Made by a program: the position numbers and the translations under genes | NCBI RefSeq assembly: GCF_006546835.1 | Contig: NZ_VICB01000026.1 | Span: 1 to 57,444 of the forward strand | Direction: 5' to 3' | DNA: 57,444 nt | From: Actinomyces johnsonii | GTDB lineage: Bacteria; Actinomycetota; Actinomycetes; Actinomycetales; Actinomycetaceae | Notes under the pieces: model-generated | Seen by the model: the letters and a program-made list of their open reading frames with translations, nothing else | The model's database searches: none | What the model was told of the DNA's origin: nothing | Part shown: positions 16,981 to 21,039 of the stretch, piece after piece | How positions within the stretch are numbered: position 1 is the first letter of the stretch | Layout of the letters: each line of letters opens with the position of its first letter

Positions 16981-18093
16981 TTAGTGGTGCAGCTCAAGCA
17001 GCTGCTCCAGAATGGACACCACCGCGCCGGGGCGTGAGGGGACGCGGACCGTCTGCCTCCTCGCCCTGACCTCTTCCAGGCCGTCCCCGACGATGACACC
17101 GATGTCTGCCGCGCGGATCATCGCTATGTCGTTGGCGTCGTTGCCTACCGCGACCCACGTGGAGACGGGCCGGTGGCGAAGGCCTGGTGCCTGCCCCATG
17201 ACGGCTGTCCTTTCTGTGGTATCCGCCCTTCCCGAGGCGGCCGGCTCCTCCTCGCCGGTCGGCAGCCTCATACAGACGCTCTTGTCCACCCCTGCCGCGC
17301 AGACGTCGACCACGCCGTCCTCGTGTGGGTAGGCGACGACGCCGTCAAGACGCAGCCCCAGCAAGTCCTGGAGAGCGCCCGCGGGCTCCGGGCCGCCCGT
17401 CTCCTGCGCGCCGGCAGCCCTCGTACCCGGACCAGCCGCTCCCTGTAGCGGATCGGCAATCCTCTGCCTGATGATGTCCTGCCCCGCACGGCCCTGGTAC
17501 CTCCTGCTGACGACCGTCACCTTGAGCACATCCTCAGTCGGGACCTGCGCCGGATCGGTGCACCACGTGCCATCCGGGTAGTCCCGCATGCGCTCCAGGC
17601 CGTCCCAGAGGCCCGGTGCCGTCTCGGAATCTTGGCTGCCCCTTCGCCGGGTCTCCTTCTCCGCCACTGTCCCTGGAGACGCAGCGAAATCTGAGACCGC
17701 TGCAGACGCCTCCCTTGACCGCGGCTCTGCAACAGGGACATGCCCTGCCAGTGCAGTGAAAGAGTGGCCCCGGTCCACGTAGAGGGGCATGCCCGCACGG
17801 AAGGCGGCGTCCACGACGGCGCGGACGTGATCCGCCCTCATGGGGTAGCGCCTCTCCTTGTCTCCTAGGCGCAAGAGAGCCCCGTTGAGGCAGACCGAGC
17901 CTTCCAGGCAGGTCACGGCGTCTCCCAGTACCTCGGTCATTCCTCGGGGCGCACGTGAGGTCGCCACGATGACCGATATGTCCTCACGTCCCGCGGCCCG
18001 CCTGAGAAAGGGGGTCAGCCGGGGATCGGCGACTCCGCCGAAGACGACGGTCCCGTCCAGGTCTGTCACCACGCCCACCGGGCTGCTCAGCAT
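16981..18093 (-). CDS. HAD-superfamily (Cof-type) phosphatase
   Basis: 370-residue haloacid-dehalogenase phosphatase. Motif I is VTDLDGTVV near the N-terminus with the nucleophile and acid Asp of DLD; motif II is in VIVATSRAP; the motif III lysine is in VLKVTVVS; motif IV is VAVGNDANDIAMI. A type-C2 cap with a long insertion rich in Glu, Arg and Gly lies between. It is longer than usual for Cof proteins (about 270). It is the last gene of a five-gene overlapping operon; its start overlaps the Nudix stop by 7 bases. In that context it likely dephosphorylates a nucleotide or sugar phosphate intermediate. Substrate unknown. Confidence 0.82.
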   Translation of the reverse strand: MLSSPVGVVTDLDGTVVFGGVADPRLTPFLRRAAGREDISVIVATSRAPRGMTEVLGDAVTCLEGSVCLNGALLRLGDKERRYPMRADHVRAVVDAAFRAGMPLYVDRGHSFTALAGHVPVAEPRSREASAAVSDFAASPGTVAEKETRRRGSQDSETAPGLWDGLERMRDYPDGTWCTDPAQVPTEDVLKVTVVSRRYQGRAGQDIIRQRIADPLQGAAGPGTRAAGAQETGGPEPAGALQDLLGLRLDGVVAYPHEDGVVDVCAAGVDKSVCMRLPTGEEEPAASGRADTTERTAVMGQAPGLRHRPVSTWVAVGNDANDIAMIRAADIGVIVGDGLEEVRARRQTVRVPSRPGAVVSILEQLLELHH

Positions 18094-18509
18094 TGACCAC
18101 GCATCCTTGCAATATCAGGAATAACCCTGCTCTGAAAGGTTGACCCATCACCTGGCGAGCAGGTCACGGGGACCCATTCTACGGCCTCGATCTCAGAGCG
18201 AGGGACCGGGTCGCCCACAATATCGCACATGTAGACGAATAGGGTGATCATCCTGCTCCGGTCGAAGATGGAGACATCTTCATAGGTACCGAAGTAGGTG
18301 GCCGACACCAACGAGACCCCGAGCTCCTCATCAAGCTCGCGGCCGAGGCAGGCGACATGCGACTCCCCTTTCTCCAGTTTGCCTCCAGGAGAAATGAGGT
18401 CGGTCGTACCGTGCTTGCGGACAAGCAGCACGCTATCCCCGCGGAGAACGACCGCAGCACACTTGACAACTGGCGAACTCTTTCCCATGTCACGCTTATC
18501 AAGTCGCAC
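18087..18509 (-). CDS. Nudix hydrolase
   Basis: 140-residue Nudix hydrolase that cleaves a nucleoside diphosphate linked to another group. The Nudix box is complete: GGKLEKGESHVACLGREL followed by DEELGV. I chose GTG 18509, which overlaps the EamA stop by 11 bases and has AAGGAGGG about ten bases upstream. ATG 18488 has no ribosome-binding site, and the longer frame from 18584 lies inside the EamA gene. It is fourth in the five-gene operon and overlaps the HAD gene. With the HAD enzyme it could strip phosphates from a nucleotide product. Real substrate unknown. Confidence 0.85.
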   Translation of the reverse strand: MRLDKRDMGKSSPVVKCAAVVLRGDSVLLVRKHGTTDLISPGGKLEKGESHVACLGRELDEELGVSLVSATYFGTYEDVSIFDRSRMITLFVYMCDIVGDPVPRSEIEAVEWVPVTCSPGDGSTFQSRVIPDIARMRGQC

Positions 18510-19389: not shown

Positions 19390-20306
19390 CTGATCAGTCC
19401 CTCCAGGTCACGGCAGAAGGCTTCAGTAGCATCGACCCAGGAATCATCCTTGCACCCCAGGCTCGAGTACGAGTAGCGAATGATTCCCTGACGCCTGAAG
19501 TACTTGGCGCTGGGTGGAAGTTCTCGTACCATCACGTTCGCGTCGCCTCCTCCTCTGGACATCTTTACCGCCGCCATAGGGAGTCCGCCGCCACCTCCCA
19601 CGATCTCTAATCCCTCCGCGGCCGCCCAGTCGACAAGGTCTTGAGAGAACAGGAGCTGCGCCTTGTTCCAGACCTTTCCGCGTCTCATTCTATCAAGCGC
19701 CTGTTCAAGCAGATCAAGTGATGGGCAGCCGCCCTCAGTCAGTGACAAAAAACTCGCAATCGACGGCAGCTGTTGCCCTGTAACGGCATCTAGTATCACT
19801 ATACCCAGCCCCGGTGCGAGCGCCAGATGCTTATGAAGCGGCGCAATTACGACTGTACCACTCGACACCAGTTCCTCGGTAAGGGAAGTGCCAAGAGACT
19901 GTGCTCCGTCCACGACAGAGGCTGTCGCGCCCCCTGGTTCACGGAAGCTGTTATCGACGCTAACGTCCACTGGGGCTACATGCGTATGAAAACCGACCCA
20001 CCTGCCGTTGAGCACCTCTTCCATAGATCTGACTACCCCTTGATAGGGACCGTAGTGCCTCCATAGTGGACCTGCCCCTCTCAATCTTAAATTCTCTGCC
20101 ATAATCCCCCCGAGCACCACAGCCAGGGCGGTAGAGGTGTTCGGGACAAAATGAATGCAGTTAGAGTCTACGCCTAGGTCGTGGCCTAGCATGTCAGCAA
20201 GAGCGCTCCGACTTCTGGAAGTATGTCCGTAATATGATTCTCTCGATCGGTCGCGACTCAAGAAAGGATTTAGTGAAGGATTTATTGAGGCTGGATCATT
20301 TGGCAT
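19374..20306 (-). CDS. Class-V-type PLP enzyme (cysteine desulfurase/C-S lyase-like)
   Basis: 310-residue fold-type I PLP protein. The hallmarks of class V aminotransferases and cysteine desulfurases are readable: NTSTALAVV at 56-64 for the phosphate cup, VVDGAQSLG at 131-139 with D133 for the pyridine nitrogen and Q136 for the ring oxygen, and LHKHLALAPGLG at 157-168 with K159 as the expected Schiff-base lysine. The small C-terminal domain is short. Start ATG 20306 follows GGAGG by eight bases and overlaps the PP-loop gene by 11 bases; a longer frame to 20417 lies inside that gene. Pairing with an ATP pyrophosphatase suggests sulfur mobilisation from cysteine, but decarboxylase or aminotransferase roles remain possible. 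GC is clearly low. Confidence 0.75.
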   Translation of the reverse strand: MPNDPASINPSLNPFLSRDRSRESYYGHTSRSRSALADMLGHDLGVDSNCIHFVPNTSTALAVVLGGIMAENLRLRGAGPLWRHYGPYQGVVRSMEEVLNGRWVGFHTHVAPVDVSVDNSFREPGGATASVVDGAQSLGTSLTEELVSSGTVVIAPLHKHLALAPGLGIVILDAVTGQQLPSIASFLSLTEGGCPSLDLLEQALDRMRRGKVWNKAQLLFSQDLVDWAAAEGLEIVGGGGGLPMAAVKMSRGGGDANVMVRELPPSAKYFRRQGIIRYSYSSLGCKDDSWVDATEAFCRDLEGLIRCREC

Positions 20307-21039
20307 ACCTAGAACCCTCCAAGGAGGTGGAAGAGTTAACTTTACTGCCCTGAAGGAAGTCGATAATGTCGACAGCCTTGCGCTCCTTATCGCGCAAATA
20401 CTGTAAAACAACTTCATCGCTCGGCGTGGTAAAACTGTCGGCGAATACCGACAGGCCCTCGAGTGATTTTGTGGACAACCCTAACTGTAATAACTTGTAC
20501 TTAACGTCATCAGACGACTGCGCCCAGTCGTAGATGGGGCTCTCGTACGTGATTCCGTAACCCTTCATGAACTCCACAAAGTAGTCCTTGGCCACGGAAC
20601 GCTGCTCCGGAAACTCCTTCTGGTAGACAGCGATACCGTCATTAACTATAGTAATGTCGTTCCGCTTGCAGTAGTCGATCACGTGGCAGTGTATCGCTAT
20701 TTTCTCTCCCAGTAGTACAAGATTCTTCCTGTAGGTCAGGATGTCTTGTTCAAGGTCGGCAATAGCGAGAGAGCGGAAGCTTCCAGAAATATCTTGTTTG
20801 ACGTGTCTCAGCATCAGTCCGCCAAAGCGGCTCCTCATCTCTCGCACCCGTACCTCAAGGACATCTCTGTGTAGAGAACATCCAGAATTTGCCGTGTACA
20901 GATGTACTGGGATACCTCTCAGCATCAGGGAGCAGGCTGCAAGAGTGCTATCGCGTCCACCCGTGAACATCACCAACTGTGCGTCGCTGCCAGCGTATTC
21001 TCCCAAGGTAATCTCCTTCTGTGTTTGCAACCAATTCAT
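20296..21039 (-). CDS. PP-loop ATP pyrophosphatase (sulfur-transferase/QueC-like)
   Basis: 247-residue member of the PP-loop (N-type) ATP pyrophosphatase superfamily, which adenylates a carbonyl oxygen so that nitrogen or sulfur can replace it. The P-loop is MFTGGRDSTLAACSLML at about 24-40, the TGGRDS form of SGGxDS. ANSGCSLHR at 50-58 and DYCKRNDITIVNDG resemble the second region seen in QueC and tRNA thiolases. The remaining family cysteines are sparse (36, 54, 119, 124). It opens the five-gene island operon, with ATG 21039 preceded by GAGGTGA. No QueD, QueE or folE partner is near, so a queuosine role is unlikely. Codon use is AT-richer than in flanking genes, indicating transfer. Confidence 0.78.
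   Translation of the reverse strand: MNWLQTQKEITLGEYAGSDAQLVMFTGGRDSTLAACSLMLRGIPVHLYTANSGCSLHRDVLEVRVREMRSRFGGLMLRHVKQDISGSFRSLAIADLEQDILTYRKNLVLLGEKIAIHCHVIDYCKRNDITIVNDGIAVYQKEFPEQRSVAKDYFVEFMKGYGITYESPIYDWAQSSDDVKYKLLQLGLSTKSLEGLSVFADSFTTPSDEVVLQYLRDKERKAVDIIDFLQGSKVNSSTSLEGSRYAK

Follow-up and report, generated by a model that had tools for sequence, protein, structure and literature searches.

The operon and its gene products

What do five overlapping genes on a contig of Actinomyces johnsonii make, and why do several genomes of the same genus carry only some of them? The window analysed here is a stretch of 57,444 bp (contig NZ_VICB01000026.1), and the genes in question code for a PP-loop ATPase, a pyridoxal phosphate (PLP) enzyme, an EamA exporter, a Nudix hydrolase and a HAD phosphatase. 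Judging from sequence comparisons, this operon-like unit probably serves to make and export 6-thioguanine or its nucleoside, a reading to which we assign a probability of roughly 0.8. According to the open reading frame list, the genes are ordered PP-loop, PLP, EamA, Nudix, HAD from 5′ to 3′:

20296..21039, minus strand: PP-loop ATPase, YcfA type, 247 amino acids; predicted guanine-nucleotide thiolase
19374..20306, minus strand: PLP enzyme, YcfC type, DUF6024, 310 amino acids; predicted C-S lyase, sulfur donor side
18499..19389, minus strand: EamA/DMT-type membrane exporter, 296 amino acids, PF00892 E 9.9e-21; predicted product export
18087..18509, minus strand: Nudix hydrolase, 140 amino acids from GTG, PF00293 E 2.8e-16; predicted 6-thio-GTP pyrophosphohydrolase
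16981..18093, minus strand: HAD-IIB (Cof-type) phosphatase, 370 amino acids, PF08282 E 2.8e-11; predicted 6-thio-GMP phosphatase

A preliminary description of the locus had reported five frames on one strand with overlaps of 11, 16, 11 and 7 bases; all five were found open, and the overlaps are correct given a Nudix start at the GTG at 18509, which is preceded by a Shine-Dalgarno-like stretch AAGGAGGGAGGG. With the alternative ATG start (18087-18488, 133 amino acids) the third overlap becomes a 10-base gap. The motifs named there are also present, F-T-G-G-R-D-S at residues 25-31 of the PP-loop protein and D133-G-A-Q136 and H158-K159 in the PLP enzyme, and its domain names all agree with ours, except that the PLP protein can be specified as DUF6024 (PF19488) and the HAD protein as Cof/HAD-IIB type. 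The set is beyond chance since each gene has homologues and all five recur in Actinomyces oris WE8B-23 (locus L002, record NZ_MSKS01000081.1) with protein identities of 89-95%.

The proposed search of the PP-loop protein against YcfA of Erwinia amylovora revealed close kinship, with 65-68% identity and the catalytic-site D30 matching D19 of YcfA; the E. amylovora sequences were compared as PDB matches only, and the YcfA structures (9kq4-9kqd), with ATP and guanosine triphosphate (GTP) bound, are known here from their PDB titles. In an alignment of 36 proteins, 52 invariant positions are common to the PP-loop protein, TgsB of Staphylococcus chromogenes and the others, and these positions, the identity values, the structure matches and a tree of 32 rows all place the protein in the YcfA/TgsB type. 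The PP-loop alignment (A1) combined 31 of the 120 listed proteins (215 found) with the window and four loci, and the one used for folding (A3) was the same minus three plasmid rows.

For the PLP protein, both the search and the fold comparison pointed to YcfC-type kinship: it matches PF19488, its PLP lysine lies in a PLHKH motif, and its fold is that of YcfC (DUF6024). Persulfide-forming cysteine desulfurases (SufS/IscS) require a catalytic cysteine, and among 19 aligned DUF6024 proteins no cysteine occupies an invariant or a 90% column. Alignment A2 comprised 16 of 23 PLP proteins, the window and two loci, and the folding alignment A4 comprised 15 of the 23, the window and L003; the near-identical P0121, the fragments P0124-P0127 and the chimeras P0129 and P0130 were omitted from both and P0140 from A4 as well. 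Three public proteins (P0127, P0129, P0130) have PLP-protein pieces attached to unrelated sequence. In P0130, whose 90% cluster holds 115 public sequences, a PF13276 transposase-type start, which we take to be of the IS3 kind, is joined to the PLP end. Rearranged PLP alleles seem common, with assembly errors possible for small clusters.

The Nudix box of the window protein is intact (GKLEKGESHVACLGRELDEELGV), and the protein shares 35% identity with TgsC, 46% with a Nudix protein of a Boseongicola metagenome-assembled genome (MAG) and 39% with the Nudix portion of a Nudix-HAD fusion from Vibrio. The EamA protein shares 33% identity with its counterpart in the Boseongicola cluster. The HAD protein carries DLDGT and GNDAND motifs and aligns over two short stretches (38-43% identity) with the HAD portion of the fusion from Vibrio. 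A Nudix gene and an EamA/DMT exporter gene stand in one unit with the synthesis genes, as in the ycf and tgs operons.

Comparison with known 6-thioguanine systems

The E. amylovora ycf operon, whose exporter is YcfD, resembles the window operon in having a YcfA-type PP-loop protein with the same catalytic-site Asp, a YcfC-type DUF6024 PLP enzyme and a Nudix gene. The window operon differs in its additional HAD-IIB phosphatase, its gene order (that of ycf is taken here from the gene letters, not from sequence) and its actinobacterial host. According to a review, 6-thioguanosine is not formed, either in vivo or in vitro, unless YcfA and YcfC are both present (PMC6225789). YcfB is a Nudix enzyme in what is described as a four-gene operon (PMC7994395); the preliminary description had also listed such an enzyme in the Erwinia cluster.

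The tgs operon of S. chromogenes yields 6-thioguanine once moved into S. aureus RN4220 and consists of genes for a PLP enzyme, a PP-loop protein, a Nudix protein, an EmrE-like exporter, a second Nudix protein and a HAD phosphatase (PMC7994395; type-strain plasmid gene table). Like the window operon, tgsA-F unites PLP, PP-loop, Nudix, EamA and HAD genes, but it has two Nudix genes instead of one and a different order; it is located on plasmids in three Staphylococcus records. The uncharacterised cluster of Vibrio coralliilyticus pSNUTY1 contains PP-loop (66% identity), DUF6024, EamA, Nudix and HAD-IIB parts, with the difference that Nudix and HAD-IIB are fused in one protein and the order is PP-loop, Nudix-HAD, PLP, EamA. 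Four-gene relatives ordered PP-loop, Nudix, PLP, EamA are present in the Boseongicola MAG, where the gene names are backed by blastp, and in genome G645 from the same taxonomic order as the host of the window, where the Nudix, PLP and EamA genes were named from reading translations. On a plasmid of Alicyclobacillus acidoterrestris (L006, 6007-8717), PP-loop, Nudix, DMT exporter and HAD genes lie together with no adjoining PLP gene annotated.

The neighbourhood survey for a conserved five-gene order returned the same set in A. oris, with order and HAD content varying elsewhere. Since the tgs gene content, the Vibrio fusion, a natural Nudix-DUF6024 fusion (P0140) and the Boseongicola and G645 clusters combine the same parts, PP-loop, PLP, Nudix, EamA and HAD genes form a natural set of varying order and HAD content.

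Proposed pathway

The earlier interpretation, namely thiolation of a purine nucleotide, phosphate removal by the Nudix and HAD enzymes and export by EamA, gains support from the YcfA/YcfC kinship and the tgs gene content. In the predicted pathway, the PLP protein would release sulfur by breaking a C-S bond, with cysteine or a similar compound as donor. The PP-loop protein would use ATP to activate a guanine nucleotide (most likely GTP) at O6, so that sulfur could replace this oxygen. The Nudix enzyme would cleave pyrophosphate from 6-thio-GTP to leave 6-thio-guanosine monophosphate (6-thio-GMP), from which the HAD phosphatase would strip the final phosphate; a housekeeping nucleosidase or phosphorylase would perhaps free the base from ribose, and EamA would transport the product outward. 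Human NUDT15, a Nudix enzyme, hydrolyses 6-thio-GTP and 6-thio-dGTP (PMC4532830, PMC5688067), and the comparison with the window Nudix protein is one of proposed activity only. EamA, Nudix and HAD would both complete the product and keep the nucleotide pool of the producer free of toxic 6-thio-(d)GTP, and for this reason the three could persist without the other genes, as a self-resistance module.

Evidence against and alternative readings

Several observations weigh against 6-thioguanine synthesis by this operon. The PLP protein is only 24-25% identical to YcfC, and the gene order departs from the PP-loop, Nudix, PLP, EamA order of Boseongicola and G645. TgsA is an Aminotran_5 protein and not DUF6024, and TgsF is HAD_2 and not HAD-IIB, so the staphylococcal and Actinomyces systems have their PP-loop and Nudix kinds in common but differ in their PLP and HAD enzymes. 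YcfA and YcfB are named as necessary and sufficient in PMC7994395, in conflict with PMC6225789. The PP-loop frame of A. oris has TAG where the window has its third codon (L002 348-360), immediately followed by GTG at the position of the window's codon 4, TTG; translation in A. oris may begin at this codon. Finally, a promoter/terminator scan gave no promoter-like site on the minus strand, the three sites found (1.3 expected by chance) all being on the plus strand.

The differences from tgs in HAD and PLP type and the four-gene clusters without HAD would also suit a different product, such as thio-inosine or a further modified thiopurine, with gene order and HAD type mirroring a changed substrate. 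We consider this unlikely, given the closeness of the PP-loop protein to YcfA, whose structures hold GTP, the invariant positions shared with TgsB and others, and the fact that TgsB, at only 44% identity to the window protein, still works in 6-thioguanine synthesis (PMC7994395).

Less probable still is that transposons left the operon behind as a relic, silent or in decay, which gives no product. The missing minus-strand promoter-like site would fit such a relic, as would the occurrence of partial copies in five genomes and complete copies in only two of the 49 genus genomes, and the following feature lies directly upstream:

21327..21961, both strands: transposase remnants (DDE_Tnp_1 23.6 bits, cut-off 23; DDE_Tnp_1_assoc E 5.7e-15)

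Against decay stand the five open frames, the ratios of nonsynonymous to synonymous substitution (dN/dS) between the window and A. oris, 0.11 for the PP-loop gene and 0.38 for the PLP gene, and the public 90% clusters of near-identical full-length proteins, with 743 sequences for PP-loop and 756 for PLP (a second full-length PLP cluster has 100 members). That the PP-loop and PLP proteins are a housekeeping transfer RNA (tRNA)-thiolation pair with neighbours there by chance is very improbable. A PP-loop fold common to ThiI, MnmA, LarE and QueC and weak matches to ThiI models would fit such a pair, but the scores for the ThiI tRNA 4-thiouridine synthase family are below cut-off (Pfam ThiI 13.3 of 20.5 bits; TIGR00342 14.1 of 264.5).

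Genomic context and distribution

The GC content is 0.50 for the PP-loop gene, 0.55 for PLP, 0.64 for EamA, 0.58 for Nudix and 0.69 for HAD, with flanks of about 0.70. PP-loop matches were found in two of 49 genus genomes, in two of 99 relatives (the same two genomes), in two of 396 genomes of the order (the window and G645; this sample drew only part of the genus) and in one of 396 of the phylum, the window itself; a pattern scan of genome contigs, with patterns derived from one protein, found two loci. Gain of the operon by horizontal transfer is the natural reading.

On one side of the operon lies a permease gene (15488-16603), judged by reading to be of the siderophore type, and on the other a ThiF-rhodanese gene (22226-23593). 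In genome G024 both have homologues whose alignments are 51 bases apart, and the operon is absent. The ThiF-rhodanese fusion is a protein of sulfur-activation type but probably has no connection with the operon, being found in 43 of the 49 genus genomes. Other species (L013 and L015) carry different genes, small and lipoprotein-like by reading, between permease and ThiF-rhodanese, and the junction may be a variable site. Elsewhere in the window, 2175-5609 on the minus strand encodes a protein of 1144 amino acids with many similar tetratricopeptide-like repeats, as seen from reading the translation.

Stump genomes and the retained trio

Among the 49 genus genomes, including that of the window, PP-loop is present in two, full-length PLP in two, a C-terminal PLP stump in five, EamA in eight and HAD in nine, at unequal search thresholds (1e-3 for PP-loop and PLP, 1e-60 for EamA, 1e-20 for HAD). 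Both genomes with PP-loop also have EamA, which is open in all eight Actinomyces genomes where it is present. The stumps begin at residue 278 in G006 (L023), 240 in G011 (L024), 283 in G023 (L025), 252 in G026 (L022) and 272 in G027 (L014), and each runs into EamA-Nudix-HAD with no PP-loop gene. EamA (296 amino acids) and Nudix (133 amino acids from ATG) are open in all five stump genomes and HAD in four; G018 has a diverged EamA-Nudix-HAD trio with no PLP stump.

Nei-Gojobori dN/dS values are 0.09-0.27 for EamA (28/28 pairs), 0.11-0.38 for Nudix (36/36) and 0.33-0.48 for HAD (15/15, with G023, G018 and G038 omitted for length). Between G027 and G011, stump genomes with the block at different sites, they are 0.20 for EamA, 0.14 for Nudix and 0.45 for HAD. 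In G026 and G011 the block is located away from the permease/ThiF junction and both flanks are shared between the two, so the stumps would represent between two and five losses, provided that PP-loop and PLP are ancestral.

This pattern can be read as synthesis lost and self-protection kept. Our proposal that mouth Actinomyces make 6-thioguanine as a weapon, and that relatives repeatedly lost the synthesis genes and kept a thiopurine-resistance cassette with a NUDT15-like Nudix activity, is tentative, standing a little short of even odds. Against the resistance part, G023 and G038 have a broken HAD gene, the latter having Nudix and no EamA, the stumps of G026 and G011 may come from a single deletion event, and the dN/dS values may reflect selection predating the deletions. 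The protective role of the exporter in tgs is only presumed, and a strain with the whole tgs operon still grew more slowly (PMC7994395). The stump genomes pose a testable question on producer self-protection, namely whether thiopurine tolerance can come from EamA, Nudix and HAD by themselves.

Significance

6-Thioguanine is a clinical antimetabolite, used as an anticancer and immunosuppressive drug, and Actinomyces is a genus of the human mouth. A plant pathogen and staphylococci have been shown to produce 6-thioguanine (PMC7994395), and no bacterial producers beyond Erwinia and staphylococci are named in the listed titles and abstract openings of open-access papers. Among the open-access papers searched, none combines thioguanine, Actinomyces and a biosynthetic gene cluster. 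Systems of this kind are known; what is new, as far as searched, is the variant architecture together with its Actinomyces host and the retained module. There is a possible bearing on the microbial handling of thiopurine drugs. If the reading is true, plaque bacteria, and perhaps the mucosa, would be locally exposed to a purine analogue that cells incorporate into their DNA, and the human microbiome would harbor a polymorphism of producers and resistant non-producers around a drug-like purine.

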